A stretch of 64,000 nucleotides of DNA from Chloroflexota bacterium (GCA_022826485.1 JAJDUU010000026.1:1-64000); one strand, 5' to 3'; numbered from the stretch's first letter, positions 12,760 through 50,594 are shown. A program made the numbers and translations. The notes: generated by a model not told the origin, from the letters alone.

Positions 12760-14109
12760 ATGATGCGTCCGTTGCTCGAGCAGTTGGAGGCGCGGGCGTC
12801 GGCCGGCCGGCCTGTGTCGGTGGCGCTGGCGGGCGCCGGTCGGTTTGGGACGAGCATCGCGGCACAGATATCGCAAATGGACGGTCTGCGGCTGGCGGCG
12901 GTGGCCGATCCCGATGCGCAGAACGGCGCGGATGCCCTGCGCGCCGCAGGCTGGGCTGACGACCAATGGGAGCGCTGCGAGAGCCCCGCCGCGGTGCAGG
13001 CAGCCGTCGAGGCAGGCAATGCCGCGCTGGCGCCCGACGCCGACGCGTTGGCGTCCGCGCCGATCGAGGTGTTCGTGGACGCGACCGGCCTTCCGGACGT
13101 GGCTGCGCGCAACGCCCGGGAGGCGATGCGCCGAGGTCGCCACGTGGTGATGGTCACGGTCGAGGCGGACGTGAGCTGCGGCTGGGCCCTGGCGCGCGAG
13201 GCGCGACGGCAGGACGTGGTCTACACGCTGGCCGCCGGCGATCAGCCAATCGCCATCATGGAGCTGTTCGACTGGGCCGTCGCGCTGGGCTTGGATCCGG
13301 TAGCGGTGGGACGCGGGACGCGGCTCTATCCGCAGGATCGACATGGGGACGCCGACCAGGCCCTGGCACGGCTCGGCTACAACGCGGAAACTGCAAGTCG
13401 CCTGCGGCTGAACGCGCAGATGTACAACTCGTTCCGCGACGGCACGAAGTCTCAGATCGAGATGTGCTCGGTGTCCAACATGACGGGGCTGCCGCCGGAT
13501 TGCCGTGGCATGCACGAGCCGTCGGCGGGCTTGAACGAGTTGCCGAATCTCTTCGCGCGGCGCGACGCCGGCGGTCTGCTGGACCGGACGGGCGTGGTGG
13601 ACCTGGCGAACGCGGTGGCGCCCGACGGGACGTCCGAGATGCCGGAGCACATCGCCACCGGCGTGTGGGCCGTGGTCACCTGCGGCGACCGGCGCGTGCG
13701 CGAGGATCTGCGCATTCACGGCACGCGGGTCTCGCGCGACGGGGAGCGAATGCTGCTGTTCCGCGAGTACCACCTGTGCGGCGTGGAGACGCCGCTGAGC
13801 ATCGCCCAGGCGGCGCTGCTGGGCGCGACGTCGGGCGCGCCGCGCGAGACGCCGACTTCGGAAGTGTTGGCATACGCCAAGCGGGATTTGCATCCCGGCG
13901 ACACGCTCGATGGGTCCGGCGGGCAGCTGGTCTACGGGTTGATCGATCGGGCGAAAGCAGTGAGCGCCGACGGCGTGCTGCCGCTGGGGCTCGCCTACGG
14001 CGCCACCGTGGGCGCGCCGGTGGCCGCCGATGAGCCGATTCCCTTGGATGCGGTGAGCGTCGTCCGCGACTCGTTCGTGGCGCGGCTGCGCGACGAGGCT
14101 TGCGCGTAG
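12760..14109 (+). CDS. NAD(P)-dependent dehydrogenase with C-terminal SAF domain
   Basis: A 449-residue protein of the homoserine-dehydrogenase-like group with an SAF domain (COG4091 type). The Rossmann fold starts with VSVALAGAGRFGTSIAAQIS (about residues 19-38), followed by FVDATGLPDVAARNA and VVMVTVEADVSCG. The SAF part at the C-terminus reads AKRDLHPGDTLDG through DGVLPLGLAYGA to ADEPIPLDAV, the small beta-clip domain that closes on anionic sugars or acids. It is expected to act on a sugar acid or similar compound. I chose the ATG at 12760 because upstream codons pass through a palindromic repeat. Its 3' end overlaps the truncated unit 1 by 115 bp in the opposite direction. Confidence 0.75.
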   Translation: MMRPLLEQLEARASAGRPVSVALAGAGRFGTSIAAQISQMDGLRLAAVADPDAQNGADALRAAGWADDQWERCESPAAVQAAVEAGNAALAPDADALASAPIEVFVDATGLPDVAARNAREAMRRGRHVVMVTVEADVSCGWALAREARRQDVVYTLAAGDQPIAIMELFDWAVALGLDPVAVGRGTRLYPQDRHGDADQALARLGYNAETASRLRLNAQMYNSFRDGTKSQIEMCSVSNMTGLPPDCRGMHEPSAGLNELPNLFARRDAGGLLDRTGVVDLANAVAPDGTSEMPEHIATGVWAVVTCGDRRVREDLRIHGTRVSRDGERMLLFREYHLCGVETPLSIAQAALLGATSGAPRETPTSEVLAYAKRDLHPGDTLDGSGGQLVYGLIDRAKAVSADGVLPLGLAYGATVGAPVAADEPIPLDAVSVVRDSFVARLRDEACA

Positions 14110-16538
14110 ACCGCGATCCCGTCGGCGGCGTCCATCCAAACGAGACGCCAGGCCACGGTCGGAAACATCGCCGGACGCATCGACGCCGGCAGGACCACCA
14201 ACTCGGGCGCACGCTCGCCCAGCGGCTCGACCGTCCAGGGCGCGGGCGCCTGAAGGTGCAGGTGCTGGGTGTCGATTTGGCCGGTAAGGCGCGTGTGCGA
14301 GAGCACCGACGCGACCCGCAACCCGTCCAACCAGCCGAGCTCCGGCGCGAGGTGCACGACCGTCGATGACGGCACCGAGCGGAGCGCCTCGAAGGACGCT
14401 GGGTGCGGCTCGACTGCCAGCGCGAGGAACGCCGGCCGCACGCGGTACAGCGATTCCGCGCCATCGCGCGCCGACGGCTCGAAGAGGTCCGGATCGGCCA
14501 GCCAGGCCTGCGCCCGCGGCGGCAGGGCGGTTGCCCAGGCATCCGTCGCGTGGATCCATTCGATGCCCAGGCGTCGGATGGCGGCGGGCTCCAGATGGGT
14601 GACGGCGTCCAGGTAGTCCGGTCCGGTGAAGTAGATCAGATGGGCCAGGTCGGAAAAGCCTGCGCTGCTGGGACGGCCCGTTGCCGCTGAGACTGCCCAA
14701 TAGGGCCACTCGGGCGTGAGCACGCGGGCATGCAGTGGGATGTGGTCGCGGATGTGGGTTGCCAGGCGATCGGACATGGCGGGCATCTGAAATCGCCGCT
14801 GCGGGGGCGTCGGGGTTTGGCCGTGGACCCAGCCGGCGTTCGCCAGCTGCACACCGCTCCCAACGGCCTGTCCCAGGCTGCGCACGGGCGCGGCGACTGT
14901 GGGCCAGAGGATCAGCCCCACCAGCAGCGCGGCGCCTGCGTGGCGCGGGCGCACGCTCGCCAGGCCCGCAAGGGCGACGATTGCGTTGCGTAGTCGGGGC
15001 AAGGTTTTCTGGGGAGCACCGTTGGAGGTTTCAGGTTGACTTGGGCGTGGATTCCCGCCTCCGCGGGAATGACGGTCATACAGTGGTCTCCCGTCGCGGG
15101 AATGACGGAGAGGTTTCGCGAACGTCTCGGAAAGGCGGGGGACTGTCGCGAGCAGGAGCGCCATCAGAGCGAGATTGCGGGCGTGCCCTGCGAGGCGGCT
15201 GACCACCCAGGGCGCCGGTGGATAGCTGAGAACCAGCCACGCCGCCACCAGCACGGCGGCGCCCAGCGCCAGCGTCACGACCAGGCGATCACGCCGCGCC
15301 AGGAGCACGGCGAGTCCCGCGACGACCAGTGGGCCGAGGCTCAGCAATCCAACGCCGCCCGGTCGCTCGTCGAACGAACCGAGGGCCAGCCAGTCGGTCT
15401 GACCGAAGTCCCACGTGAGCGCCAGGCCTGATGCAGGCCCGCCGTCGAGGATGGCAGTGAAGGCGCCCCCGCCGACGAGCAGCAGCAGGGCCGCCAGTCC
15501 CAGCCCCGCGCCCCAGCGGAGCGCCGCGCCGGCACGTCGTTCCCGTGTGACATGGACCGCTGCCAGACCCGCCCACAGGACGAGGACCACCGGCGCAAGC
15601 GAGGTGACGAGGATGCCCAGGAAGCCGACGAGCGCGGCGAGTGTCAGTACGCCGGGCCATGGGGCGCCCTCGGGCCGCGCCGCGCGTTCCAGCACGACGA
15701 ACGCCAGGGCGTAGCCGAGGGTGAAGGCCGGCGTCCAGATATCGTGCAGCGCCGACGTTTCCGTCGGCCACGACGGCCCGAGCGATGGCCAGTAGACCTG
15801 GGCGAGTGACCCGCCGAGTCCGGCGGCCGCCAGCCCGGCCGGCACGGGACCTTGCAAAATCCCCCCGCCCAGGCCGGTCCAGGTCCAGGCGCCGGCGGTG
15901 AGCAGCAGCGGGGCGATCATAAGCGCGACGGTCCACGACCCGCGCGCCAGGAGCGCCGTCACCACGACCAGCGCGAAGGCCGTCCAGCCGTAGGCGCCGA
16001 GCAACTCCTGCACGAACGCCAGGTCGGGGCCGACCGGCGGCGTGAGCAGTCCGACCATCAGATCGACGCCATGGTGATAGCGCACGAGATGACCCGGATT
16101 CCAGGGCGCTTCCGGCGGGAATCCGCCCGCCCGAATCCATGCCGCCAAGCCGAGGTGCAGCGTTGGGTCCGGGCTTTCGAGCAGTTGCCGGCTGGCGAGC
16201 GTCAGCCAAAGGAGCGCCAGGACGGCCAGGGCGAACACCGCCGCGACCCGCGGCCGCGGACGGATGGGTAGGGGCGCGCGCCACACGAGGACCGCGCCGA
16301 GCGCCAGCGTGATCCCCCACGCAATCGCCGCCCCGGCGAGTCCTGGCACGGCGTAGAGCACGAAGTTCGCAATCAACCCCAAAATCGCGGGGCCGACCAC
16401 CAACCCCTGCGCCAGAGCCGCGCGCTCGTCGGATTGCCGCAGCGCCACGCGGACGACGACGTAGCCCACCGCGGCCAGCGTCGCCAGCTGCGCCGCCAGG
16501 AGCAGAAGTCCCGGGATGACGGCCGGTTCAACGATCAC
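13995..16538 (-). CDS. Array unit 1: truncated GT-C-like membrane protein
   Basis: The most distal and only shortened member, 847 residues against about 945. The membrane part keeps the conserved Asp in SPDPTLHLGL and the YHHG motif, then RLAGHARN and AATGRPSSAGF. Two things are abnormal. First, between LLLATVPRLS and GAALLVGLILWPT there are some 55 extra residues including RHSRGGGNPRP; they are encoded by two copies of a dispersed palindrome (15050-15108). Second, similarity to the family stops at IAVYA (about base 14105), exactly at the stop of the convergent dehydrogenase gene; the last 37 codons are antisense to that gene and the whole C-terminal beta domain is missing. GTG start. It may be a decaying copy or a form without the outer domain. 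Confidence 0.75.
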   Translation of the reverse strand: MIVEPAVIPGLLLLAAQLATLAAVGYVVVRVALRQSDERAALAQGLVVGPAILGLIANFVLYAVPGLAGAAIAWGITLALGAVLVWRAPLPIRPRPRVAAVFALAVLALLWLTLASRQLLESPDPTLHLGLAAWIRAGGFPPEAPWNPGHLVRYHHGVDLMVGLLTPPVGPDLAFVQELLGAYGWTAFALVVVTALLARGSWTVALMIAPLLLTAGAWTWTGLGGGILQGPVPAGLAAAGLGGSLAQVYWPSLGPSWPTETSALHDIWTPAFTLGYALAFVVLERAARPEGAPWPGVLTLAALVGFLGILVTSLAPVVLVLWAGLAAVHVTRERRAGAALRWGAGLGLAALLLLVGGGAFTAILDGGPASGLALTWDFGQTDWLALGSFDERPGGVGLLSLGPLVVAGLAVLLARRDRLVVTLALGAAVLVAAWLVLSYPPAPWVVSRLAGHARNLALMALLLATVPRLSETFAKPLRHSRDGRPLYDRHSRGGGNPRPSQPETSNGAPQKTLPRLRNAIVALAGLASVRPRHAGAALLVGLILWPTVAAPVRSLGQAVGSGVQLANAGWVHGQTPTPPQRRFQMPAMSDRLATHIRDHIPLHARVLTPEWPYWAVSAATGRPSSAGFSDLAHLIYFTGPDYLDAVTHLEPAAIRRLGIEWIHATDAWATALPPRAQAWLADPDLFEPSARDGAESLYRVRPAFLALAVEPHPASFEALRSVPSSTVVHLAPELGWLDGLRVASVLSHTRLTGQIDTQHLHLQAPAPWTVEPLGERAPELVVLPASMRPAMFPTVAWRLVWMDAADGIAVYAQASSRSRATNESRTTLTASKGIGSSAATGAPTVAP
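15050..15108. repeat. Two family B palindromes inside array unit 1
   Basis: ATTCCCGCCTCCGCGGGAAT with GACGG (15051-15075) and a shorter CTCCCGTCGCGGGAATGACGG relative (15088-15108). The element is normally intergenic in this window (7794-7819, 25594-25631, 56986-57012, 57738-57764). Here it lies inside a long open frame without breaking it. Confidence 0.85.
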
Positions 16539-16632
16539 TCGCCCACCCTCGCCAAATGCGCCGGAGCTTGCGGCCGGTTACATCCTGCTAAACGCCGTCG
16601 CCGCCGGCACGGAGCTCCGCCACTGCAAAGCC

Positions 16633-19470
16633 CTATGGCGGCGATTCGCCGCGGACGTCCTCGTAGACCGAGTAGCTAATCTCGCCGGTGTCGGAGATGT
16701 CGATCCGCATCACCGGAATGAAGGCGGCCTCCCGCCAGTAGCCTGGCTGCCACTCGTGCCGCAGGCGAAGCGCCAGGACCCAGGATCCCGGCCCGATTTC
16801 ACCGTCCGATGAGTCGAGCGGCACGAAGGCTCCGATATCGTTCCGCACGGCCAGGCTGGACGCCGGCAGGTCGAACCTGTAGGTGTGTGAGCTCGTCGCC
16901 GACCCCGATGAAATCAGTCCGGCAAACCATTTGGCGACTTCAGGTCCGCGGCCTCGCCCAAGGAATCTCCTAGGGATCGCCCAGGGGCCGTCGTCCACAT
17001 GGACCACGACCCAGTCCTGGCCTGTCCAGCGTTCAGGGGCGTGCTCCCCGTAGTTCGCAGTAAACGTGATTCGACCATTCTCAATGTGCGCTTCCGGCAC
17101 CTTGACCGTAACCGGCGGCGCGTCTGGAGCTGCGCGCTGGGGCGAGATTGGCTCCACCGCGCCGTCGGGCGCATAGACGGCAACCTCACCGTTTTGCCAA
17201 ATGGGTTGCCGGGCTCCGGGCGGAAACGCCCAGGTCCACCGCTCGACGGACGCCGGCAGGACCACAAGATCCGGCGCCTGCTGGCCCAGCGGCTCGACCA
17301 CCCACGACTCGGGCGTCCGCAAGTGGAGGGGCTCGGCGGTGACGGCGCCTACCAGCCGCGCATGGGGCAGCACCGACGCGACGCGGAGTCGATGCAACCA
17401 CAGGGTCTGCGGGGCCAGGTGCACCACTGTCGACGGCGGCACGGACCGCAGCGCCTCGAACGACTCCGGATGCGGCGGCACATCGAGCTCCAGGAGCGCG
17501 CGGCGCACCCGATACAGCGACTGATCGCCGTCGCGGATCAACAGCTCGAACAGTCCAGGGTCGTTGAGCCGTTGCACCGCCGGGTCGGGTAGGTCATCAA
17601 TCCACGCATCAGGCGCATGCACGTATCCGATGCCCAGCCGCCGAATAGCCGCCGCTTCGAGATAGCGCGCGACGTCTAGATACTCAGGGCCGGTGTAGAC
17701 ATGCATGTGGACGTGCCCGCGGAACCCCGACGCGTTCGGGCGGCCGGTGGCCACTGACATCGCCGCCGGGCTAGGCGAGAAGATTCGGTCGGCAACCGCC
17801 GTGTGGTCGCGGATATACGCGGCAATGCGTTCGGATGGGAAACGCTCGATCGGATGGCGGCCCATGGGCTGCGGGCCGAGGTCGTGCTGCTCGGCCTCGG
17901 CATTCGCAAGGTGCGTGCCGTGACCAACCGCCAGGGCAAAGTTGCGGAGCGGCGCCATGATCGTCGGCCAGACCACGAGGGCGACAACCAACGCGGCGGC
18001 CGCATAGCGCCAGCGGGGCCGCAGGCCGGCCAGTCGCGCGCCGAGCGCGAGCAGCAGCGCCAGCAACGCAAAGTTGCGCGCGTGTCCGTCCAGCCGGGTA
18101 ATGTCGCCGGAGAACTCATACTGCAGGGTGAGAGCGGCGAGCAGGAACGCACCGCCGGCCACGGCGAGCGCCAGCACCAGCCGGTCCCGCCAGCCCATGA
18201 GCGCGGCGGCGCCCGCCACAACGAATGGGCCGAGACCCAGCAGGCCAACTCCGCCTGGTCGCTCAGCGATTCCCGCCAGCGGGGTGCGGCTACCTGGGTC
18301 GTCGATCCACCCAAATGAGAGGCCGGACCCTCCGGCGTCGCGCACGACGCTCGTGAGCACGCCACCGCCAACGACTAGGAGTAACGTGGCGAGGGCCGGT
18401 CCCGCGACGGCGCCCCACGCGGTGCGAGCGCCTCCCGTCGACCGGGTGGCCCAGAACTTCGCGACCTCCATCGCCACCCACAGGGCGAGCACGATTGGGG
18501 CGACGGCTTCATCGACCAGGCCCAGGAATCCGATCAGCAGCGCAAGCACCATGTCGCGAGGCCACCGGCGATCCGTGCAGGCTGCCGCCCGCTCCAGCAC
18601 CACGAAGGCCAGCGCGTACCCGAGTGTGAAGAAGGGCTTGAAGATGTTTGGCGGCGACGCGGTCGCGAGGCCGTCCGACTCGCGCCCCGGCCAATCCCAT
18701 GGCAGCTGCACGGCGGGCCAATACAAATCCGCCAGTGACTCGCGTAGCCCAGCGGATGGGATCGCTGCCGGGAAAGGGATCTGGAGAATGTACGGCGGCG
18801 GCACAAACACGAGCGTCCAGGCGCCGGCTGTCAGCAGGAGCGGCGCCAGGAACAGCGCAATGAGCCAGGAGCCGCGCTGGATGAGCATCGTCACCGCGAT
18901 GAGCGCAAAGCTCATCCAGATGTAGGCGCTCAGCAGCTCCGTCACGAACGCCAGATCTGGTCCGACGGGTGGAGCTAGCAATCCGACCAAGAGGTTGAAG
19001 CCGTAGTGGTAGGGAGTCGGAACGCCGGGAGACCAGGGGAGAACCGGCGGAATCTCGCCGGCCCTCAGCGAGGCGGTCAGCCCAAGATGGACCGGCCAAT
19101 CCGGAATGGTCAGCAACTGGCGGCTGGCGAGGGCCATCCATACGAGCACGAGGGCTGCAACGGCGAAGCCCGCCGTCGTGCGTAGTCGGGGGCGAACGGG
19201 AGCCGGCGAACGCCAGGCCAGAACCGCTCCCAGGATGAGGGTCACGCCCCAGCTCACGGCCGCGCCCGCTACTCCCGGTACGGCGTAGAGCACGAAGTTG
19301 GCAATCACCCCCCAGAGTGCGGGGCCAACCACCAAGCCTTGCGCCAGCGCCATGCGATCGTCGCGTTGCCGCAGCGTCACTCGGACCACGACAAAGCCGA
19401 CAGCGGCCAGCGCCACAAGCTCGGCCGCTACCAGCAGCAGCCCTGGAATCACCGCCGGATCAATGATCAT
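16633..19470 (-). CDS. Array unit 2: GT-C-like polytopic membrane protein
   Basis: 945 residues, complete. The first outer loop reads IPDWPVHLGL and PYHYGFN. The segment around the invariant motif is MSVATGRPNASGFRGHVHMH, whose GHVHM matches unit 6 but none of its neighbours. The pre-motif FSPSP also resembles units 5 and 6, while the following part (VVHLAPQTLWLHRLRVASVL) matches units 3 and 4, so the gene looks mosaic. The C-terminal domain has the HEWQPGYWR signature of units 2-6. ATG start at 19470; the ribosome binding site is weak. It ends 94 bp before unit 1. Sugar transfer from a lipid carrier on the outer membrane face is inferred from the layout only. Confidence 0.8.
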   Translation of the reverse strand: MIIDPAVIPGLLLVAAELVALAAVGFVVVRVTLRQRDDRMALAQGLVVGPALWGVIANFVLYAVPGVAGAAVSWGVTLILGAVLAWRSPAPVRPRLRTTAGFAVAALVLVWMALASRQLLTIPDWPVHLGLTASLRAGEIPPVLPWSPGVPTPYHYGFNLLVGLLAPPVGPDLAFVTELLSAYIWMSFALIAVTMLIQRGSWLIALFLAPLLLTAGAWTLVFVPPPYILQIPFPAAIPSAGLRESLADLYWPAVQLPWDWPGRESDGLATASPPNIFKPFFTLGYALAFVVLERAAACTDRRWPRDMVLALLIGFLGLVDEAVAPIVLALWVAMEVAKFWATRSTGGARTAWGAVAGPALATLLLVVGGGVLTSVVRDAGGSGLSFGWIDDPGSRTPLAGIAERPGGVGLLGLGPFVVAGAAALMGWRDRLVLALAVAGGAFLLAALTLQYEFSGDITRLDGHARNFALLALLLALGARLAGLRPRWRYAAAALVVALVVWPTIMAPLRNFALAVGHGTHLANAEAEQHDLGPQPMGRHPIERFPSERIAAYIRDHTAVADRIFSPSPAAMSVATGRPNASGFRGHVHMHVYTGPEYLDVARYLEAAAIRRLGIGYVHAPDAWIDDLPDPAVQRLNDPGLFELLIRDGDQSLYRVRRALLELDVPPHPESFEALRSVPPSTVVHLAPQTLWLHRLRVASVLPHARLVGAVTAEPLHLRTPESWVVEPLGQQAPDLVVLPASVERWTWAFPPGARQPIWQNGEVAVYAPDGAVEPISPQRAAPDAPPVTVKVPEAHIENGRITFTANYGEHAPERWTGQDWVVVHVDDGPWAIPRRFLGRGRGPEVAKWFAGLISSGSATSSHTYRFDLPASSLAVRNDIGAFVPLDSSDGEIGPGSWVLALRLRHEWQPGYWREAAFIPVMRIDISDTGEISYSVYEDVRGESPP

Positions 19471-19606
19471 TCGCCCAATCCCACCCGATGGGTCCGAGCC
19501 TTCGGGCGCTCACATTCTGCTAGTCGTTGCTTCAGCCAGGTGATATTCCGCTGCTTGCGTGCGCGATGCCCGTACCGATTGGCTCACGTCACAACGCCGC
19601 ACGACG

Positions 19607-22441
19607 CTACGGATGCGGACCGCGACTGACGTCGTCGTAGACCGAGTACCTGATCTCGCCGGTGTCGGAGATGTCGATCCGCATCACCGGGACGAAGGCG
19701 GCCTCCCGCCAGTAGCCTGGCTGCCATTCGTGCCGCAGGCGAAGCGCCAGAACCCAGGATCCCGGCCCGATTTCGCCGTCCGACGCGTCGAGCCGTACCA
19801 ATTCTCCGCTCTGGTTGCGCACCGCCAAGCTGGTCGCCGGCACGTCAAGCTCGTAGGCGTGCGCGCCGCGGACCAGGTTGGGCGAGATCAACCCGGCGAA
19901 CCACCGCGCGATCTCCGGCCCACGGTCCTGGCCGAGAAATGCGGCGGGAAGCTCCCAGGGCGATGTGTCCACGGGCACTACCACCCAGTCCTGGCCCGTC
20001 CAGCGCTCCGGCGCCACATTCTCGAAACTCGCCGTGAAGGCAATGCGTCCGTCGTCAAGGCGGGCATCGGCTATCTCGACGTCTACCGGCGGCGCGGCAA
20101 GCTCGACTCGCGGCGGCGTGATGGGCGCGACCGCCCCGTCCGGTGCGTAGACCGCGATCTCGGAGTTCTGCCAGATGGGCTGCCGGGCGCCGGGCGGAAA
20201 CGCCCAGGTCCACGGTTCCACCGACGCCGGCAGGACGACGAGATCAGGCGCCTGCTCGCCCAGTGGCTCCACCGTCCAAGGCTCCAGTGAACGCAAGTGG
20301 AGTTTCTGCGCGCTGATGGCGCCCACCAGACGGGCGCGCGGCAGCACGGACGCAACACGGAGCCGCTCCAGCCACAGGGTCTGCGGTGCGAGGTATATCG
20401 CCGTGGACGGCGGGACGGACCGCAAGGCCTCGAACGACTCGGGATGCGGCGCAACCTCAAGCTCGAGGAAGGCCGGCCGAATGCGATAGAGCGCCTCGTC
20501 GCCGTCGCGGATGAGGAGCTCAAACAGGCCCGGATCCGATAGCCAAGCCTTGGCACGGTCGGGCAATCTCGCAGCCCAGACGTCTGTCGCATGAACGTAC
20601 TCAAGGCCCAATCGCCGAATCGCGGCCGGCTCGAGATAGTGACGCGCGTCCCAATACTCCGGGCCTGAGTAGTAGTTCTGGTGATAGTTCACATCGCGAA
20701 AGCCGGCGTTGTTTGGGCGGCCGGTGCCGAGGAATACATTCCAATACGGCCACTCGGTGGCGAGCACGCGCGCATCCACGCTGGTGTGGTCCCGGATGTA
20801 GGCCGCGACCGGTCCCGTCAAGGCCCGAAGTTGAAACCGGCGCATGGGCAGCGTCTCGCCCTGATCGATCAGCTCCTGTTGCACCCACCGCGCATTGGCC
20901 AGTTGCACACCGTTGCCGATCGCGAGGCCGACATTGCGCGCGGGCGCCACGACCGTGGGCCAGGTGATCAGTGCAACCAGCACCGCGCCGGCGGCGTAGC
21001 GCAAGCGTCCCGGCGGGAGGTTGGACAGGCGTGAGCTCATCGCCAGCAGCAGCGCCACGAGCGACAGGTTGCGGGCATGCCCCGCCATACGGCTGATATC
21101 CCAAGGGGCCGGGGGATAGGTCAGCGCGATCCAGACGAGCACCAGCAAGCCGGCGCATGCCGCCAGCGCCAGCACCAACCGGTCGCGCCGGTCCAGCGCC
21201 ACCGCCACGCCCGCGAGCGCCAGCGGCCCCAGGCCGAGCACGGCCACGCCGCCGGGACGCGCGTCGAAGGTTCCAAGCGCCTCCCAGTGCTTCGGTTCAA
21301 GGTCCCAAGCCAGCCCCAGGCCTGACGGCGGCGCACCGTCAAGGAACCCGGTGAACGCGCCCCCGGCAAAGAGGAGCAGCAGACCGGCCACCAAGGGCCC
21401 CACGCCCAGGCGCAGCACCGCCCGCGTCGCCCCCTCGGCCCGTCGAGCGCGGATGCCATGCGCCAGCGCCAGACCGGCCCATACGACCAGCACCACCGGC
21501 ACGAACGTGGTCGAGAGCAGGCTCAGGAAGCCGACGAGTCCCGCCAGCGTCAGCGTCGCTTGCCACGACCAGCGTTCGTGGCTGGCCGCATGCTGCAGCA
21601 CCACGAACGCCACTGCGTAACTCAGCGGGAATCCCGGCTTCCAGATGTTCGACAGGACGTCGAAGACTTTCGCGGACAGCTCGACGTGCGGCCAATAGAT
21701 GTCGGTCAACGACGCGCGCAGGCCGGCCTCCGGCAGCCCGGCCGGAATGAGCAGCTGCAAGACGCCAAACTCGACGTCGGTGAAGGTCAGGAGGCCGGTG
21801 CTGAGCATGAGCGGGGCCATGACGATCACACCGACAGGCGAGGCCCGCTGGAGCAGCGCCGTGATCACGATCAGGACCAAGGTCGTCCAGGCATAAGCCC
21901 CCAACAGCTCGGAGACGAACGCGAGGTCCGGTCCGAACGGCGGCGTCAGCAGTCCCACGAGCAGGTCGGTCGCGTGGTGATAGCGCGCCAGTGTGCCGGC
22001 GTGCCAGGGCAACTCGGGGGGAAAGCCGCCTGCCCGGAGCGTGGCGGCCAGCCCCAGATGGATGGGCGGATCCGGGATCAACATGATCTGGCGGGTGGCG
22101 AGCGCCGCCCAGCCCAGCGCCAGGGCCGCAACGGCTAATCCCGCCACCACTCGTGGTCGTGGGCGAATCGAGCGACGCGCGCGCCACGCCAGGACCGTGC
22201 CCAGCGTGAGCATGACGCCCCAGCCGACGATGGCCCCGGCGAGGCCGGGAACCACGTACATCACGAAGTTGACGATCACGCCCCAGAGCGCGAGCCCCAC
22301 CACCAGACCCTGGGCAAGGGCGACCCGCTCGTCGTCTTGGCGCAACACCACCCGCGCGACGATGTAGCCCACCGCGGCCAGCGCGACCAGCTCAGCCGCG
22401 AGGAGCAGGAGGCCCGGGATTACGCTCGGATCAATGGTCAC
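19607..22441 (-). CDS. Array unit 3: GT-C-like polytopic membrane protein
   Basis: 944 residues when started at the GTG at 22441. The open frame begins five codons earlier (22456), but at 22441 the protein starts MTIDPSVIPG like its sisters and GGAGG lies eight bases upstream, so the inner start is right. First loop IPDPPIHLGL and YHHATD; end of membrane part RMAGHARN. The variable segment reads WPYWNVFLGTGRPNNAGF followed by RDVNYHQNYY. It is very close to unit 4 over its whole length, which suggests the pair arose by a recent duplication. C-terminal signature HEWQPGYWR. A 136-bp spacer without recognisable signals separates it from unit 2. Confidence 0.8.
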   Translation of the reverse strand: MTIDPSVIPGLLLLAAELVALAAVGYIVARVVLRQDDERVALAQGLVVGLALWGVIVNFVMYVVPGLAGAIVGWGVMLTLGTVLAWRARRSIRPRPRVVAGLAVAALALGWAALATRQIMLIPDPPIHLGLAATLRAGGFPPELPWHAGTLARYHHATDLLVGLLTPPFGPDLAFVSELLGAYAWTTLVLIVITALLQRASPVGVIVMAPLMLSTGLLTFTDVEFGVLQLLIPAGLPEAGLRASLTDIYWPHVELSAKVFDVLSNIWKPGFPLSYAVAFVVLQHAASHERWSWQATLTLAGLVGFLSLLSTTFVPVVLVVWAGLALAHGIRARRAEGATRAVLRLGVGPLVAGLLLLFAGGAFTGFLDGAPPSGLGLAWDLEPKHWEALGTFDARPGGVAVLGLGPLALAGVAVALDRRDRLVLALAACAGLLVLVWIALTYPPAPWDISRMAGHARNLSLVALLLAMSSRLSNLPPGRLRYAAGAVLVALITWPTVVAPARNVGLAIGNGVQLANARWVQQELIDQGETLPMRRFQLRALTGPVAAYIRDHTSVDARVLATEWPYWNVFLGTGRPNNAGFRDVNYHQNYYSGPEYWDARHYLEPAAIRRLGLEYVHATDVWAARLPDRAKAWLSDPGLFELLIRDGDEALYRIRPAFLELEVAPHPESFEALRSVPPSTAIYLAPQTLWLERLRVASVLPRARLVGAISAQKLHLRSLEPWTVEPLGEQAPDLVVLPASVEPWTWAFPPGARQPIWQNSEIAVYAPDGAVAPITPPRVELAAPPVDVEIADARLDDGRIAFTASFENVAPERWTGQDWVVVPVDTSPWELPAAFLGQDRGPEIARWFAGLISPNLVRGAHAYELDVPATSLAVRNQSGELVRLDASDGEIGPGSWVLALRLRHEWQPGYWREAAFVPVMRIDISDTGEIRYSVYDDVSRGPHP

Positions 22442-22613
22442 GTCCGAGACCTCCACGTCCTATCCAGCGGTTGTCCTCAATCTTCGGCGGCCAGACCGCG
22501 GCGCTCCACGCGAGCCGACGGCTCACCGAGGCCCGCAGGGTCCTCACTAGCCCAAACGCCGCGAGTATGTCTGTGGTCGATCTCAGGCATTAAGCCGATC
22601 CTGGCCCGACTTG

Positions 22614-25472
22614 TCACGGCGTCGCTGGAGTCCTTGAACGCTGTGTGTCGCCGGGCACGGCTTCGTAGATCGAGAAGGAAACGTCGCCGGCGTCGGAAAC
22701 GTTGATCGTCACCACTGGAATGAAGGCGACCTCGCGCCAATGTTCAGGCTGCCACTCGTGCTGCAGGCGAAGCGCCAAGACCCAGGTTCCGACACCCAGG
22801 TCACCCTCCGACGCCGTGAGCGGAACCAAGGCGCCACTGTCATGGCGCACCGCCAGGCTGGGAGCGTGGACATCAAGCTCATAGGTGTGCGAGCTCGTCG
22901 CCGCCCCCGAACTGAAGAGCCCGTCAAACCACTTGGCGATCTCGGGTCCACGGCCGTGGTCATGGAATCTGGTGGGAATCGCCCAGGGTCCGTCGTCGAC
23001 CTGGACGATGACCCAATCCTGGCCCGTCCAGCGCTCCGGCGACTGGTTGGCGAACGCGCCGGTGAAGGCAATGCGCCCATCGGCAACGCCGTCCGCGGAC
23101 ACCCGCACGGTGACCGGCGGAGCTTCCAGCGCGGCTTGCGGCGGCGTGATTGGCGCGACCGCCCCGTCCGGCGCATAGACCGCGATCTCATCGTTTCGCC
23201 AGATGGGCTGCCGGGCGCTGGGCGGAAACGCCCAGGTCCACAGTTCGACCGACGCCGGTAGCACAATGAGGTCAGGCGCCTGCTCGTCCAACGGCTCCAC
23301 CGTCCACGGTTCTGGCGTGCGCACGTGCAGCGGCAGCGCGCTGATCGCGCCAACCAGGCGGGCGTGCGGCAGCACCGACGCAACCCGGAGCCGCTCCAGC
23401 CACAGGGTCTGCGGAGCGAGATAGACCACCGTGGACGGTGGGACGGCACGCAGCGCTTCGAACGACTCGGGATGCGGCGCAACCTCGAGGTCCAGGAAGG
23501 CCGGCCGAATGCGATACAACGCCTCGTCGTCGGCGCGGATCAATAGCTCGAACATGCTCGGGTCGGCCAGCCAGTCCTTGGCGCGGTCGGGCAACTCCGC
23601 GGCCCAGGTGTCCGTGGCGTGGACGTACTCGAGGCCCAATCGCCGAATGGCGGCGGGATCGAGGTAGTGGCGCGCGTCCCAATACTCCGGTCCTGGGTGG
23701 TAGAGCAGGTAGACCACATCGGCAAAGCCCGCGTTGTTCGGGCGGCCGGTGGCAAGGAATACGTTCGTATAGGGCCATTCGGTGGCGAGCACGCGGGCAT
23801 TCACGTCCGTGTGGTCCCGGATGTAGTCCGCCACGGGACCCGTCAACGCCCGAAGCTGAAACCGGCGCATGGGCACGGTCTCGCCCCGGTCAATCAACTC
23901 GTGTTGGACCCATCGGGCGTTTGCCAGCTGCACGCCGTTGCCGATCGCGAGGCCGAGATTTCGTGCGGGCGTCACCACCGTGGGCCAGACGACCAGACCC
24001 ACGAGCAGCGCGCCCACGGCGGCACGCCAACGCCCGGGCGGCAGCTCGGCCAGGCGCGAGCTCATCGCGAGCAGCAGCGCCATGAGCGACAGATTGCGCG
24101 CGTGCCCCGCCAGGCGGTTGATATCCCAGGGCGCCGGCGGATACGTCAGCGCGAGCCAGACGGCCACAAATAGGACCGACCCGGCCGCCAGCGAGAGCAC
24201 CAGACGGTCGCGCCGCGCCAGCGCAATGGCCACGCCCGCGAGCGCCAACGGCCCCAAGCCCAAGAGGCCCAGGCCGCCGGGACGCGCGTCGAACGAGCCG
24301 AGCACGTGCCATTGGGTGGAGTCGAGGCCGGGCGCGACTTCCAATCCGGAAGGCGGCGCGCCGTCGAGCACCCCGGTGAACGCGCCCCCGCCGCCGAGGA
24401 GCAGCAGCACCGCCAGCGCCGGCCCCAGGACTGACTCCAGCGCGGCGGACGACGTCGGGCCAATGCGCCGTAGGCGAAGGAAGTGCAGGGCGGCCAGGCC
24501 AGCCCAGAGCAGCCCCACCACGGGCACCAGCGTGGTCGACAGCAGACCCAGAAAGCCCACCATTGCCGCCAGCGCGACGTTCGCGCCTCGCGACCAGCGG
24601 TCGGACTGCGCCGCATGGCTGAGCACGATGAAGGTCACGGCGTAGCTGAGCGGGAATCCCGGCTTCCAGATGTCGGCCAAGACGTCGGAGCTGTGCGCGG
24701 TCGAGGACAGCTCGACGTGCGGCCAATAGACATCGCCGAGCGACGCGCGCAGGCCGGCCTCGGGCAGACCGGCCGGAATGGGCAGCTGCACCACGCCGGG
24801 ACCGACGTTGGTGAACGTCCACAGTCCGCTGCTCAGCATGAGCGGCACAGCGACAAGCGCCCCGACCAGCGATCCCCGCTGCAGCACCGCCGCGGCGACT
24901 ATCAGGAACAGGCTTGTCCAGGCGTAGGCGCCGAGCAACTCGGAAACGAACGCGAGGTCCGGTCCGAACGGCGGAGCCAGCAGGCCGACCAGCAGGTCCG
25001 TGCCGTGGTGATAGCGGACGAGCGTGTCCGCATGCCAGGGCAGCTCCGGTGGGAATCCGCCCGCGCGGATCGTGGCCGCCAGTCCGAGGTGGATTGGCGG
25101 GTCAGGAATCACTATCAACTGGCGGCTGGCGAGCGCCGCCCACATGAGCGCGAGGACCACCACGGCGAAGCCCGCGGCCACGCGCGGACGGGGCCGAACG
25201 GGGCGCGGCGCGCGCCGCGCCAGGACCGCGCCCAGGGCGAGCATGACGCCCCAACCGACGAGGGCCCCGGCGAGGCCGGGAACCACGTAAATGACGAAGT
25301 TGACGATCAGGCCCCAGAGGGCGAGGCCCACGACCAACCCCTGGGCAAGGGCCACGCGGTCGTCGCCTTGCCGCAGCACCACCCGGACGATGATGTAGCC
25401 CACCGCGGCCAGCGCCACGAGCTCCGCCGCGAGGAGGAGCAGGCCGGGGATGACCGCCGGATCCACGATCAC
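22614..25472 (-). CDS. Array unit 4: GT-C-like polytopic membrane protein
   Basis: 952 residues, the longest unit because of a short hydrophilic tail after the C-terminal domain (GDTQRSRTPATP). First loop IPDPPIHLGL and YHHGTD; RLAGHARN; variable segment WPYTNVFLATGRPNNAGF then ADVVYLLYHP. Outer domain with ERWTGQDWVIVQVDDGPWAI and HEWQPEHWR. GTG start with GGAGG nine bases upstream. It is the last of the units 4-1 block and follows the unrelated 513-residue membrane gene after 217 bp. Confidence 0.8.
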   Translation of the reverse strand: MIVDPAVIPGLLLLAAELVALAAVGYIIVRVVLRQGDDRVALAQGLVVGLALWGLIVNFVIYVVPGLAGALVGWGVMLALGAVLARRAPRPVRPRPRVAAGFAVVVLALMWAALASRQLIVIPDPPIHLGLAATIRAGGFPPELPWHADTLVRYHHGTDLLVGLLAPPFGPDLAFVSELLGAYAWTSLFLIVAAAVLQRGSLVGALVAVPLMLSSGLWTFTNVGPGVVQLPIPAGLPEAGLRASLGDVYWPHVELSSTAHSSDVLADIWKPGFPLSYAVTFIVLSHAAQSDRWSRGANVALAAMVGFLGLLSTTLVPVVGLLWAGLAALHFLRLRRIGPTSSAALESVLGPALAVLLLLGGGGAFTGVLDGAPPSGLEVAPGLDSTQWHVLGSFDARPGGLGLLGLGPLALAGVAIALARRDRLVLSLAAGSVLFVAVWLALTYPPAPWDINRLAGHARNLSLMALLLAMSSRLAELPPGRWRAAVGALLVGLVVWPTVVTPARNLGLAIGNGVQLANARWVQHELIDRGETVPMRRFQLRALTGPVADYIRDHTDVNARVLATEWPYTNVFLATGRPNNAGFADVVYLLYHPGPEYWDARHYLDPAAIRRLGLEYVHATDTWAAELPDRAKDWLADPSMFELLIRADDEALYRIRPAFLDLEVAPHPESFEALRAVPPSTVVYLAPQTLWLERLRVASVLPHARLVGAISALPLHVRTPEPWTVEPLDEQAPDLIVLPASVELWTWAFPPSARQPIWRNDEIAVYAPDGAVAPITPPQAALEAPPVTVRVSADGVADGRIAFTGAFANQSPERWTGQDWVIVQVDDGPWAIPTRFHDHGRGPEIAKWFDGLFSSGAATSSHTYELDVHAPSLAVRHDSGALVPLTASEGDLGVGTWVLALRLQHEWQPEHWREVAFIPVVTINVSDAGDVSFSIYEAVPGDTQRSRTPATP

Positions 25473-38956: not shown

Positions 38957-39024
38957 TCAGCTTTCCTCAACGGCGGGTTCCGGGTTTGCGACGTGCCGCG
39001 TCCCGCTTGGCGTCGGCGCGCACG
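38957..39024. repeat. Conserved 68-bp inter-unit spacer
   Basis: Third copy of the same spacer, between units 8 and 9. The next spacers (41863-41931, 44773-44839) are of nearly equal length (69 and 67 bp) and keep CCACGCTA at the upstream stop, but are otherwise diverged. Confidence 0.85.
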
Positions 39025-41862: not shown

Positions 41863-41931
41863 TCGACTCTCCCCACCCGACGACGCGGACCTTGCGACGG
41901 GGGCGTTTCGTATTCAGCGGCGGCGCCCACG

Positions 41932-44772: not shown

Positions 44773-44839
44773 TCATCGACCCTGACCGAAGGCGTCCGAG
44801 CTCGGGATCGAGGGCGTCGGAGCGTCGCTGGCATCCACG

Positions 44840-47671
44840 CTAGCGGCCGAGGACGTCGTCGACGACCCGATACGTCACGTCGCCGTCCTCGGATACCGCC
44901 ACCGTCAGCACCGGAATCAATGCGGCTTCCTCATGCGCGAGGTAGGCGCCGCGGTCCACCTCTTGCCGCAGCCGCAGCGCCAGCGTCCACGTGCCAGAGC
45001 CGGTCACGTCAGCCGACAATTCTTCCGTGCGGTACGCGCCATCGCCACTCCGCACTGCAAGTTTCGACGCCGCTGCATCGTAGACGTAGCTGTGCGTCGT
45101 CAGGCCTCGTCCCCGAACGACCTGACCGGCGAACCACTGCTCCACCACGGGCTTTCCGCCATCCAAATTCCTCGGGATCGCCCACGGTGATTCATCGACA
45201 TTGATGAGCACCCAGTCTTGTCCCGTCCATCGCTCGGGCGAGTGATCGTCGACGATCACGGTGAATGCGATTCGCCCGTCAGCGATCCGCACGTCGGAAA
45301 CCCTCACACTGATCGGCGGCGGTTCCGGCGGCGCACTGTCGGGCGGCGGCATGATCGGCGCGACGGCCCCATGCGGCGCGTAGACGGCCATCTCGTGGTT
45401 CCACCAGATCGGCTGCCGGCCCTCCGGCGGGAACATCCACGGCTCCTGCTCTCGCGGCAGGATCACCAGGTCCGGCGTCTGCGCGCCGAGCGGTTCGGCG
45501 GACAGCGAGCTCAGGACGTGCGCCCTTCGCTGCATGTACGTGAGCACACCGAATAGTCGGGCCTCTGGCGAGAGCACCGACGCAATGCGCAGGGTGGTGT
45601 CGGTCTCGAAGGGCGCGCCGCTCGGCCAGTACACCAGGGCGCCCGGGGACACGGCCTGCCGCAGCGCCTCGAATGAGGCCAGTGTCGGCGGCACGTCCAG
45701 TGTCAAGAATGCCGGCCGCACGCGGTAGAGGGCCACCGCGCCGTCGCGCACCAGCAGCTCGAACAGCTCGGGGTCCGCCAGCCAGCGCCGCGCCCGCTCC
45801 GGCAGCCCCGCCACCCAGTCCTCCGTGGCGTAGATGTAGTCAATGCCCAATCGCCGCATGGCGTTCGGTTCGAGGTGGTCGCGGGCATCCACGAACGCCG
45901 GACCGACCTTCGGCAGCAGATGCCGCACATTGAGGTATCCCGCGCCGTTCGGGCGGCCGGTGGCGTACGCCACGGACAGGAGCGGCGGCTCTGGCACGAG
46001 CACGCGCGCGTCCACCGCCGTGTGGTCCCGGATATAGCCCGCGACGCGCGCCGACACCGCCGGCATGGCAAATCGCCCGTGGCCATAGGGCTCGGTCGCC
46101 GCGGGGCGAAGCTGACCGGCATTGGCCACCTCGATGCCGCGCCCCAGCGCGCGGCCCAGGTGGCGCGCCGGCGCCACGATGGTCGGCCAGATGACCAGGC
46201 CCAGCAGCAGCGCGCCTACGGCAAGGCGCCAGCGCGGCCGCAGTGCCATGAGGCGGGGACTAAGGGCCAGGAGCAGCGCCACGAGCGCGAAGTTGCGCGC
46301 GTGCCCCGCGAGGCGGTGGATGTCTTTGGGCACTGGCTCATAGCGCAGCACCAGCCAGCCCAGCGCCAGCATTGCGGCGCCCACGGCCAGCGCTAGAACC
46401 AGGCGGTCGCGCCGTGCCAGCAGGACGGCGATCCCCGCCACGACGACCGGCCCCAGCGCCAGAAGACCCACGCCGCCCGGCTGCGGGTCGAGCGCGCCCA
46501 GCAGCCGCCAGGATGCCGGATCGCCTTCCCACCACCACACGAGGCCCGACGATGCCGAGCCCTCTAAGAGTCCCGTGAACCTGCCGCCGCTGCCCAGGAG
46601 CAGGAGCGCGGCCAGCGCCAGACTCGTGCCCGGCCGCAGCGCGGCGCGCCAGGCGAGTGTCCTCCCACGCCAGGCCTGCCCGAGACGAAGCATCTCAAGG
46701 CCCGCCCACAAGACCAGCATCAGGGGCGCCAAGATCGTGGCCACCAGTCCGATCCACCCAACCAGCCCCGCGAGCGTGAGGCTTGCCGGCCACGACCGGC
46801 CTTCGGCCCGTGTCGCGCGCTCCAACACCACGAAAGCCACCGCATATGCCAGCGGGAAGGAGGGCTTCCAGATGTTTGGGAGCGCCGCTTCCTTCGGCTC
46901 CCAAATCTGTCCCACCTCGGGCCAGTAGATATCGGCCAACGAGGCGCGCAGGCCTGCCTCCGGCAGCCCGGCGGGGACCGCGATCCGCACGATGCCGGGA
47001 GCGCTGGCGGTCCACGTCCAGAGTCCCGCCGTGAGCAACAGCGGCGTGAGCAGCAACGCCGCTTGCCAAGACCCGCGCGCCACCAGCGCCGTCACGACCA
47101 CCAGCACGGCGCTCGCCCAGGCATAGACGCTCAACAACTCGTGCACGAAGGCAAGGTCGGGCCCAACCGGTGGAGCCAACAGGCCAATCAGCAGGTAGGC
47201 GCCGTGATGGAAGTGCGCCGGCATGCCCGGATTCCAAGCCATCTCGGGCGGAAAGCCGCCCGCCCGCAACGAGGCGGCCAAACCCAGGTGCGAGTGTGGA
47301 TCGGGAATGGTGACTTGCTGCCGACTCGCGAGCGCGACCAGGAAGAGCGCGAGCACCAAGAGGACGAATCCCGCCGCCGTGCGCGGCTGAAGTCCGAGGG
47401 GCTGCGGCGCGCGCCACGCCAGGACTGCCCCCAGCATCAGCGTGACGCCCCAGCCCACGGCCGCGCCCGCAAGCCCCGGCACGGCGTAGAGGACAAAATT
47501 CGTGATCAGGCCCCAGAGGGCGAGGCCGACCACCATGCCTTGCGCCAGAGCCATGCGGTCGTCGGTCTGTCGGAGCACCACGCGGACGACGATGAAGCCC
47601 ACCACCGCCAAGGCGACGAACTCCACCAGGAGCAGCAGGAAGCCCGGAACGACCGCCGGATCAACGATCAC
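44840..47671 (-). CDS. Array unit 11: GT-C-like polytopic membrane protein
   Basis: 943 residues. First loop IPDPHSHLGL and HFHHGAY: it is the only unit with Phe in place of Tyr154. RLAGHARN; variable segment PPLLSVAYATGRPNGAGY then LNVRHLLPKV. YATEDW replaces YATDxW. The DNA of 45,490-45,620 is nearly the same as 33,865-33,990 in unit 7, a copy shared across 11.6 kb. Signature EVDRGAYLAHE. GTG start with GGAGG eight bases upstream. Confidence 0.82.
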   Translation of the reverse strand: MIVDPAVVPGFLLLLVEFVALAVVGFIVVRVVLRQTDDRMALAQGMVVGLALWGLITNFVLYAVPGLAGAAVGWGVTLMLGAVLAWRAPQPLGLQPRTAAGFVLLVLALFLVALASRQQVTIPDPHSHLGLAASLRAGGFPPEMAWNPGMPAHFHHGAYLLIGLLAPPVGPDLAFVHELLSVYAWASAVLVVVTALVARGSWQAALLLTPLLLTAGLWTWTASAPGIVRIAVPAGLPEAGLRASLADIYWPEVGQIWEPKEAALPNIWKPSFPLAYAVAFVVLERATRAEGRSWPASLTLAGLVGWIGLVATILAPLMLVLWAGLEMLRLGQAWRGRTLAWRAALRPGTSLALAALLLLGSGGRFTGLLEGSASSGLVWWWEGDPASWRLLGALDPQPGGVGLLALGPVVVAGIAVLLARRDRLVLALAVGAAMLALGWLVLRYEPVPKDIHRLAGHARNFALVALLLALSPRLMALRPRWRLAVGALLLGLVIWPTIVAPARHLGRALGRGIEVANAGQLRPAATEPYGHGRFAMPAVSARVAGYIRDHTAVDARVLVPEPPLLSVAYATGRPNGAGYLNVRHLLPKVGPAFVDARDHLEPNAMRRLGIDYIYATEDWVAGLPERARRWLADPELFELLVRDGAVALYRVRPAFLTLDVPPTLASFEALRQAVSPGALVYWPSGAPFETDTTLRIASVLSPEARLFGVLTYMQRRAHVLSSLSAEPLGAQTPDLVILPREQEPWMFPPEGRQPIWWNHEMAVYAPHGAVAPIMPPPDSAPPEPPPISVRVSDVRIADGRIAFTVIVDDHSPERWTGQDWVLINVDESPWAIPRNLDGGKPVVEQWFAGQVVRGRGLTTHSYVYDAAASKLAVRSGDGAYRTEELSADVTGSGTWTLALRLRQEVDRGAYLAHEEAALIPVLTVAVSEDGDVTYRVVDDVLGR

Positions 47672-47759
47672 GCCGGAGGCCTCCCCGCGACCGCCGCGCG
47701 TCTACTCAATGCGGCCGCGCTCTCGATCCATCAAGTTCCGATGATTGCCGACGCCAATG

Positions 47760-50594
47760 CTACTCATCACCCACGGCGTCGTAGACCTCATACGACACCT
47801 CGCCGGCCGGGGACACGGTGATCTTCAGCACCGGGATCAACGCCGCTTGCTCGTGCGCCACGTACGTGCCGCGGTCTTCCTCCCGCAGCAACCGCAACGC
47901 CAGCGCCCAGGTGCCCGGGCCTTCGTCTCCGCCCGACGAGGTCTCGGTCCGGTACGTGCCGTCGCCGCTCCGCACGGCGAGGCTGGACGCCAGCGCATCG
48001 TAAACATAGGCGTGCGTGGTGGTCCCCCGCCCCCGCACGATCTGGCCGACGAACCACTGCTCCGCCACCAGCGTGCGTTGATCGCTCTCCAGGCGCCGGG
48101 GAATCGACCACGGTCCCCCGTCCACGGCCACCAGCGCCCAGTCTTGTCCCGTCCATCGCTCCGGCGAGTGATCGTCCACGGTCAGACTGAACGCTATCTG
48201 CCCATTCGCCACCCGCACGTCCGACACCCGTACGTCGATTGGCGCCGGCTCGGAGGGCGCAGCCTCCGCCGGCGGCCTCACCGGCGCCACGGCGCCGTCG
48301 GGCGCGTAGATAGCCATTTCCTCATTCCACCAGATCGGTTGCCGACCCTCTGGCGGAAACATCCACGGATCAAGCCCCACCGGCACCAGCACGAGGTCTG
48401 GGATCCGATCGCCGAGCGGTTCGACCGGCACGGAGGTCAGCGCGTGCAATCGCCGCAGCGCATACTTGAGCTCGCCGTGCAGTTCGGCCTCTGGGGCCAG
48501 CACCGACGCCACCCGCAGCGTCGTGTCCGTCTCGAAGGGCGCACCGGAAGGCCAGTACACCGCGGTTTCCGCGGGCACCGCCTGTCGCAGCGCCTCGAAC
48601 GTCGCCGGTGCGGGCGGCACATCGAGGGCCAGGAACGCCGGCTGCACGCGGTAGAGCGACTCGGCGCCGTCGCGCACCACCAGCTCGAATAGCTCGGGGT
48701 CCCCCAGCCAGCCCCGCGCCCGATCCGGCAGGCCCGCCACCCACGCGTCCGGCGCATAGAGATAGTCAATCCCGAGCCGCCGCATGGCGCCTGGCTCCAG
48801 GTGGTCACGCACATCCAGATACTCGGGGCCAAAGGCGTATCGCATATAGCTCAAGTTGGGGTAGCCCGCGCTGTTCGGGCGGCCGGTGGCGGCCGTGATC
48901 TTCCAGAAGTACTCCTCCGGCACGAACACGCGCGCATCCACCGCGGTGCGGTCCCGGATAAAGGCCACGACGCGCGCGGACACCGGGGGCAACGCCCCCC
49001 GCCCCGGCCAGGTTCGAGCGGTTGGCGCTTCGGCCCACGTCGCGTTACTCACCTCAATCCCTTGGGCCACCGCAAGTCCGAGGTTGCGCACCGGCACCAC
49101 GCTCGTGGGCCAGATGATCAAGCCCACGAGCAATGCGCTGGCGGCATAGCGCCAACGGGGTCGCAGTCCCGCGAGGCGCGCGCTCATGGCTAGCAAGAGC
49201 GCCAGCAGCGCGAAGTTTTGCGCGTGCCCCATCAGCCGATTGAGGTCGGCTGGATGCGGCTCGTAGCGCAGCACCAGCCAGCCCAAAGCCAGCAGGCCGG
49301 CACCCATGGCTAGCGCCACCACCAGGCGATCGCGCCAGGCAAGCAGCGCCGCGATCGCCGCCGCGACTACAGGGCCAATCGAGACCAGGCCCAGGCCGCC
49401 GGGCTGCGCATTGAACCCGCCCAGTAGCCGCCAAGACTCCGCGTTGTCTTCCCACCAGAACGCGAGACCGGAGGACGCGGCGCCCTCCAACATGCCCGTG
49501 AACCGGCCACCGCCGGCCAGGAGCAGGACCACGGCCAGCACAAGGCCGGCGCCTGGCCGCAGCACAGTGCGCCAGGCCGGATGTCGCCCGCGCCAGGCCC
49601 TCCTCACATCCAGCGCCTCGAATCCCGCCCAGAGCCCCAGCACCAGCGGCGTCAAGGGTGTGGACAGCAGGCCGAGGCCGCCCACCAAGCCGGCGAGCGT
49701 CCCGACCGAGCGCCACGACCGGCCTCCTGGTCGCGCCGCGCGCTCAAGCACGATCATCGCCAATGCGTACGCCAGCAGGAATGAGGGCTTCCGGATATTC
49801 GGCAGCGCCGCTTCAAAGCGGGACCACGTCTCCCCTGTCGACGACCAGTAGGTCTCCGCCAGTGACGCGCGCAGGCCCGCCTCCGGAAGCCCCGCCGGGA
49901 CGGGAGCCTGCAAAATCCCGCTGCCCACGGTCGTACCCGTCCACAGACCGGGCGCAAGCAGCAGCGGCGAAAGGAGCAGCGCAACTTGCCAGGACCCGCG
50001 CGCCAGCAGCAGCGTCACCACCACTAGCGCAAAGCCGGTCCAGGCATAGGCGCCCAGCACCTCGGCGGCGAACGCCAGGTCAGGTCCAAATGGCGGCGCC
50101 AATAGTCCGACGAGCAGCTGCGCGGCGTAGTGATATCGCAGGGGCTCGCCGGGACTCCAGGACAGCTCCGGTGGGAATCCGCCGGCCCGGAACGCGCCGG
50201 CCATGCCCAGGTGCAGCTGCGGATCGGAGAAGGTCAGGAGCTGCCGACTCGCCAGCGCGATCCAAAACAGCGCCAGGACAGCCGCCACGAACCCCGCCAG
50301 CACGCGCGGCGTCGGGCGAATCCGCGCCGGCGCGCGCCACGCCAGGACCGCCCCCAGCCCGAGGGTCAGGCCCCAGCCGATCGCCGCACCCGCCATCCCG
50401 GGGACGGCATACAGCACGAAGTTGGTGATCAGACCCCAGAGGGCGAGGCCGATCACCAGGCCTTGCGCGAGGGCCATGCGCACGTCGTCCTGGCGCAGCG
50501 CCACTCGCGCCACCACATAGCCCACGGCGGCCAGCGCGGCGAACTCCGCCAGCAGCAGCACGAAGCCCGGCACGACCGTGAGATCAACGCTCAC
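47760..50594 (-). CDS. Array unit 12: GT-C-like polytopic membrane protein, promoter-proximal
   Basis: 944 residues and the first unit in the direction of transcription. First loop FSDPQLHLGM and RYHYAAQ; RLMGHAQN with Gln in place of Arg. ETYWSS replaces the common YWP motif. Variable segment YFWKITAATGRPNSAGY then PNLSYMRYAF, paired with unit 8. Signature EEDRGTYVAHE. GTG start; GGTGG lies eight bases upstream. Only 43 bp separate it from the dehydrogenase gene before it, so a shared transcript is likely. The 88-bp spacer to unit 11 is not like the 68-bp spacers. Confidence 0.82.
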   Translation of the reverse strand: MSVDLTVVPGFVLLLAEFAALAAVGYVVARVALRQDDVRMALAQGLVIGLALWGLITNFVLYAVPGMAGAAIGWGLTLGLGAVLAWRAPARIRPTPRVLAGFVAAVLALFWIALASRQLLTFSDPQLHLGMAGAFRAGGFPPELSWSPGEPLRYHYAAQLLVGLLAPPFGPDLAFAAEVLGAYAWTGFALVVVTLLLARGSWQVALLLSPLLLAPGLWTGTTVGSGILQAPVPAGLPEAGLRASLAETYWSSTGETWSRFEAALPNIRKPSFLLAYALAMIVLERAARPGGRSWRSVGTLAGLVGGLGLLSTPLTPLVLGLWAGFEALDVRRAWRGRHPAWRTVLRPGAGLVLAVVLLLAGGGRFTGMLEGAASSGLAFWWEDNAESWRLLGGFNAQPGGLGLVSIGPVVAAAIAALLAWRDRLVVALAMGAGLLALGWLVLRYEPHPADLNRLMGHAQNFALLALLLAMSARLAGLRPRWRYAASALLVGLIIWPTSVVPVRNLGLAVAQGIEVSNATWAEAPTARTWPGRGALPPVSARVVAFIRDRTAVDARVFVPEEYFWKITAATGRPNSAGYPNLSYMRYAFGPEYLDVRDHLEPGAMRRLGIDYLYAPDAWVAGLPDRARGWLGDPELFELVVRDGAESLYRVQPAFLALDVPPAPATFEALRQAVPAETAVYWPSGAPFETDTTLRVASVLAPEAELHGELKYALRRLHALTSVPVEPLGDRIPDLVLVPVGLDPWMFPPEGRQPIWWNEEMAIYAPDGAVAPVRPPAEAAPSEPAPIDVRVSDVRVANGQIAFSLTVDDHSPERWTGQDWALVAVDGGPWSIPRRLESDQRTLVAEQWFVGQIVRGRGTTTHAYVYDALASSLAVRSGDGTYRTETSSGGDEGPGTWALALRLLREEDRGTYVAHEQAALIPVLKITVSPAGEVSYEVYDAVGDE

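Follow-up and report, generated by a model that had tools for sequence, protein, structure and literature searches.

What might a bacterium gain from a dozen large, homologous membrane proteins encoded one behind the other? The question is posed by a stretch of 64,000 nucleotides from a Chloroflexota bacterium (GCA_022826485.1 JAJDUU010000026.1:1-64000), hereafter called the window, in which 12 homologous ORFs of 2,544-2,859 bp each occupy the minus strand at 13995-50594. The units are named u1 (13995) to u4 and then u6 to u13 (50594), and transcription runs from u13 to u1. In that direction, the array and its surroundings comprise the following features:

51944-53809, minus strand: glucose/sorbosone dehydrogenase (GSDH) family protein, conserved upstream flank
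50638-51894, minus strand: Gfo/Idh/MocA-type oxidoreductase, immediately upstream of the array
47760-50594, minus strand: u13, 944 aa; first gene of the array, 43 bp past the Gfo/Idh/MocA gene
44840-47671, minus strand: u12, 943 aa
41932-44772, minus strand: u11, 946 aa
39025-41862, minus strand: u10, 945 aa; unit chosen for the model (predicted GT-C fold, pLDDT 90.5), with Asp124 at the putative catalytic position
36119-38956, minus strand: u9, 945 aa; gene-conversion tract with u8 at its 5' end
33219-36050, minus strand: u8, 943 aa; conversion tracts with u9 (residues 2-40) and u12 (711-752)
30316-33150, minus strand: u7, 944 aa
27326-30157, minus strand: u6, 943 aa; orthologue in the congener G001
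25690-27231, minus strand: unrelated hydrophobic protein of 513 aa, interposed between u4 and u6
22614-25472, minus strand: u4, 952 aa; orthologue in G001; weak PF10060 match (E 6.8e-4)
19607-22456, minus strand: u3, 949 aa; orthologue in G002
16633-19470, minus strand: u2, 945 aa; orthologue in G002
13995-16538, minus strand: u1, 847 aa; C-terminal beta domain absent, GT-C part and alpha/beta domain present
12604-14109, plus strand: convergent DRL_cat/SAF oxidoreductase, conserved 3' flank, overlapping the end of u1 by 115 bp

An array of variable length at a fixed site

The preliminary description of this DNA had reported twelve co-directional genes repeated with a regular period; the number was confirmed, whereas the period is broken once: the start-to-start steps, calculated from the coordinates, measure 2,899-3,016 bp except for one of 4,685 bp, because the non-member 513-aa ORF sits between u4 and u6. 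The interposed protein has no match in Pfam or NCBIfam, and among the congeners checked a copy of its gene (88% identical) adjoins the array in G001 only. Eleven of the units are 943-952 aa long, u1 being the exception, and pairwise identities among the 12 range over 50-74% at the amino acid and 61-77% at the nucleotide level. Intergenic gaps mostly measure 67-69 bp in the recent part of the array (defined below) and 88-158 bp elsewhere; since they are so short, a single long transcript over the array is possible, perhaps beginning in the upstream oxidoreductase genes. The gap between the Gfo/Idh/MocA gene and the array is 43-44 bp in all six congeneric genomes, and this gene is probably co-transcribed with the units. 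A search of the window against Rfam returned zero matches.

Is such an arrangement peculiar to one genome? A search of related genomes for the array and its copy number, of the kind the preliminary description had proposed, found it in all five congeners checked, in 4, 7, 8, 9 and 7 copies and in each case at the same site, bounded 5' by the Gfo/Idh/MocA and GSDH genes and 3' by the convergent DRL_cat/SAF oxidoreductase. An M81 metallopeptidase (MlrC-like) gene at 54380-55903, upstream of the array, is likewise conserved, and the flanks hold no typical glycan-cluster genes.

The last gene of the array merits separate consideration. It had been counted as the one unit that was not intact, next to eleven that were; the eleven are indeed full-length, whereas u1 is a short form that closes the array on its 3' side in each of the six congeneric genomes, always as an intact ORF. 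Its orthologues end at profile positions 765-791 of 938, and in the tree its group holds one member per genome from all six. The layout said to be common to every unit is consequently that of eleven, u1 lacking the C-terminal beta domain. TGA codons within the matches of the relatives fit natural ORF ends that the search had read through. The possibility that u1 is a decaying pseudogene was ruled out, since six genomes have orthologous copies of the short form, all of them intact. A dispersed palindromic repeat, GTCATTCCCGCGnnGGCGGGAATCCA, lies in frame within u1 at 15048-15073, near residue 475 of the protein; it has 93 matches genome-wide (with at most one mismatch), and at the same site two other u1 orthologues carry inserts of different length and three carry none.

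When the alignment of the twelve units was used as the query, further family members came to light. The genome itself contains two more full-length members outside the window (contigs C30 and C41), a distant one on C21, and one split by a frameshift (L084, G000:C45:41635-44395), whose neighbours, a GT4-type glycosyltransferase and a YfhO-family protein, form the only clear glycan context seen in this genome. The single member on C30 is followed by a second Gfo/Idh/MocA gene (L082:9341-10330), which, together with its orthologue, is 34-38% identical to those adjoining the array. A sister genus has up to 22 family matches per genome; in the four genomes examined, facing arrays surround DUF3604, acetyl-CoA synthetase and epimerase genes (L097-L099 on G008:C3, L139-L142, L145-L146) and are flanked by asparagine synthase or Nudix genes. 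Across a sample of 400 genomes drawn evenly from the phylum Chloroflexota, the family occurs in 20, belonging to three genera.

Predicted fold and family relations

No family over cut-off emerged when all units were scanned against Pfam and NCBIfam, and a profile search of PDB sequences gave nothing at E<=10, so that no sequence homology to the arabinosyltransferase AftA (GT85) was found. An AlphaFold2 model of u10, built from 84 aligned members, reached a pLDDT of 90.5 and a pTM of 0.89, and Foldseek returned eight PDB matches at E<=0.001, all of them to GT-C enzymes or OST/translocon complexes: two chains of AftA, three matches to DPY19, and one each to AglB, an OST-containing complex and a translocon complex. 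Below this set came ArnT, PMT1 and ALG9. The best match, mycobacterial AftA (8if8), has an E-value of 1.2e-5 and a TM-score of 0.48-0.50 by target length; such modest scores are expected, because the fold is shared and the loops differ. In the model, juxtamembrane helices 125-136 and 157-165 sit between TM 96-117 and TM 173-199, as in a GT-CA core. The prediction thus supports a GT-C glycosyltransferase fold, as the preliminary description had supposed, and the profile comparison with DUF2298/Chlor_Arch_YYY that it had also suggested points the same way: 22 such proteins of relatives align with the units over 584 columns (u10 residues 47-657) with a probability of 92% and an E-value of 5.5e-7.

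This remote homology covers most of the GT-C part and the alpha/beta domain, and the FPP..PW..G....Y and TG.P..G blocks are common to both groups. The array units, however, have YH[HY]G in place of YYYxG, lack the EKxM motif, add the C-terminal beta domain and score below both family cut-offs: the best of them reaches 18.5 bits against PF10060 (DUF2298; cut-off 27.8), and three of the 12 match TIGR03662 (Chlor_Arch_YYY; cut-off 300.25 bits; best E 3.8e-5, u3 at 14.5 bits). A family member from another genus scores 29.8 bits against PF10060. Moreover, the units stand in tandem, whereas the same genome has two DUF2298 genes over cut-off. They are a GT-C family of their own, related to DUF2298/YYY and amplified in tandem; a literature search on DUF2298 and Chlor_Arch_YYY found nothing on function. 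The C-terminal 291 residues, modelled separately, form a predicted beta-sandwich (pLDDT 90.4) with no PDB match at E<=0.001. An EmbC-like CBM was considered for this domain and not confirmed; the sandwich may hold the acceptor, carbohydrate binding by it being no more than a possibility, given that no confident PDB match was obtained.

A putative active site and the residues around it

In GT-CA enzymes, the tip of juxtamembrane helix 1 bears an Asp that is essential (PMC12041299). D124 of u10 lies at the N-tip of helix 125-136, straight after TM 96-117, and, as placed by sequence and secondary structure, would be the Asp of this catalytic position. It is identical in all 12 units, as are H155, E178, R453, H457, R573 and D595; H128 is replaced by Tyr in u8. 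Among the 84 aligned members, D124 is kept in 88% and E178 and R453 in 100%. One orthologue group in the congeners (G003:C24:297803-300652, L092, and G004:C2:46606-49452, L094) has His for D124 and Arg for H128. Some members may therefore be inactive or altered in their activity.

If the putative catalytic residues are shared, where do the paralogues differ? Between orthologues, no part is better conserved than the first extracytoplasmic loop (dN 0.041, omega 0.11), whereas between recent paralogues the dN of this loop is 0.236. Twenty-one sites are fixed in all nine orthologue groups (of 2-6 sequences each) and show at least three residues among the groups. Of these group-fixed sites, 15 fall among 281 positions in u10 residues 118-407 and six among 631 elsewhere (p 1.3e-4, one-sided), an enrichment for which the regions were picked once the model and the rates were known, and to which conversion at the ends could alone contribute by reducing such sites there. 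Five of them (126, 127, 145, 153, 159) lie in loop 1, beside D124, H128 and H155, and the linker and beta domain contain none. As the residues that differ between paralogues and stay fixed between orthologues cluster in residues 118-407, they may be taken as a sign of distinct specificities.

Old units, young units and exchange between them

A FastTree phylogeny of 69 members, its topology read without support values, gives u2, u3, u4 and u6 partners in other species and unites the six 5' units, u8-u13, in a group of their own, indicative of a recent expansion in their own lineage. The 3' part of the array is therefore old and the 5' part young, because u1-u4 and u6 have cross-species partners and u8-u13 group alone. 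The dN/dS comparison between units that had been proposed gave 0.17-0.36 for 18 of the 19 pairs, the remaining one standing at 0.48 (Nei-Gojobori, pairwise). The units are under purifying selection, and these values, together with the conservation of active-site residues and synteny, sustain the earlier contention that they are in use and not silently stored. On what the proteins do, dN/dS is silent.

Runs of identity at silent sites revealed two gene-conversion tracts that are significant after correction for 55 pairs and agree with sliding identities, one between u9 and u8 (residues 2-40) and one between u12 and u8 (residues 711-752). Both fall outside residues 118-407. Wholesale concerted evolution was ruled out, since, whichever segment is taken, most units (36-44 of about 50) find their best match outside their own genome.

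What could the array be for?

We consider it fairly probable that the units are GT-CA glycosyltransferases dependent on lipid-linked sugars, that they diversified by birth and death, and that their task is the construction or decoration of a surface glycan. With a polyprenyl-phosphate-sugar as donor, each unit would attach a sugar to an acceptor that lies outside the membrane. In the predicted layout, three additional helices at the N-terminus precede a GT-C core, which includes two juxtamembrane helices; an alpha/beta domain on the extracytoplasmic side and the C-terminal beta-sandwich follow. Tandem duplication at the fixed chromosomal site would have enlarged the array, the catalytic half would have diverged between paralogues, presumably with respect to the donor, the acceptor or the linkage, and retained its residues between orthologues, and recombination between copies would have exchanged sequence elsewhere. 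Acting jointly, the units would assemble or decorate a complex glycan on the cell surface, glycan assembly being the role that we would infer for the array. Donor synthases may be among the 16 matches to GT2-type transferases in the same genome. Somewhat more speculatively, one may envisage an expandable toolbox at a fixed site, in which a GT-C family outside the named ones multiplies by tandem copying, keeps a separate specificity module in each copy, undergoes gene conversion elsewhere and thereby provides each of the related symbiont species with surface-glycan linkages of its own.

Perhaps, however, the array serves as a reservoir for surface variation, the glycan changing under pressure from phages or a sponge host through copy number and recombination. 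The six-unit expansion specific to this lineage, in the 5' half of the array, and the mosaic genes would be in keeping with this idea, as would the presence of sponge MAG series among the relatives: Coscinoderma and Rhopaloeides are sponges sampled in PMC8163846, the COS and RHO series presumably derive from them, as their names suggest, and the bacterium is probably a relative of sponge symbionts. Yet no silent cassettes were seen, every frame being open with its own start, and the persistence of orthologues across species is a better fit to lasting roles, which makes this reading rather unlikely. Similarly, copies of an enzyme with one GT-C reaction could have arisen by unequal crossing over and drifted apart slowly, without distinct specificities, or been kept for dosage; copy number does range freely, from 4 to 12, at one site, gene conversion is present, and the array, with its short gaps, is probably read as a single operon. 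That the paralogues are just 50-74% identical, differ beside the catalytic position at residues that stay fixed in orthologues, and show in loop 1 the disparity in dN given above argues against this explanation, which we regard as unlikely. A non-enzymatic or non-glycan role, for instance as a lipid or sugar transporter or a scaffold derived from a GT-C protein, would accord with flanks that are not glycan genes and with the orthologue group devoid of the catalytic-position Asp, the enzymatic activity of the units being a predicted one; it is nonetheless improbable, given that all 12 units have retained this Asp together with the His, Glu and Arg residues and that the significant fold matches are enzymes. 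Finally, although the source genome is a draft of 52 contigs, an assembly duplication is virtually excluded and the array confirmed as real, because its units are far too divergent, even at the DNA level, and because five other, independent assemblies have the same array between the same flanks; in the single-contig genome G006, units adjoin the same 3' flanking gene.

Relation to known systems

How, then, would glycosyltransferases of the kind we favour compare with those already described? Of the mycobacterial arabinosyltransferases AftA, Emb and AftD, AftA is the best fold match of u10, but the units have no sequence match to any PDB chain. The emb paralogues lie adjacent to one another. 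Like the array units as predicted, the Emb proteins are GT-C paralogues of large size whose C-terminal beta domain is soluble (PMC3044687), but the C-terminal domain of the array units has no match to the EmbC CBM, and there are 12 units as opposed to three emb paralogues. In three-component periplasmic glycosylation (Gtr, GT136), a GT-C enzyme with an extracytoplasmic domain decorates a surface polysaccharide (PMC11127046). The array units resemble it in the added extracytoplasmic domain and differ in that neither donor synthase nor flippase lies beside the array, a GtrA-type flippase family that could act as a partner not having been found in the genome. The preliminary description had known of no comparable locus, and the literature searched likewise contained no account of large GT-C enzymes in a tandem array of this length.

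If the units do differ in specificity, one operon would supply a naturally occurring set of paralogues that share a scaffold and vary around the active site, on which the residues that determine GT-C specificity would be directly testable. It would also point to an undescribed, species-specific surface glycan in uncultured Chloroflexota that are probably sponge symbionts.
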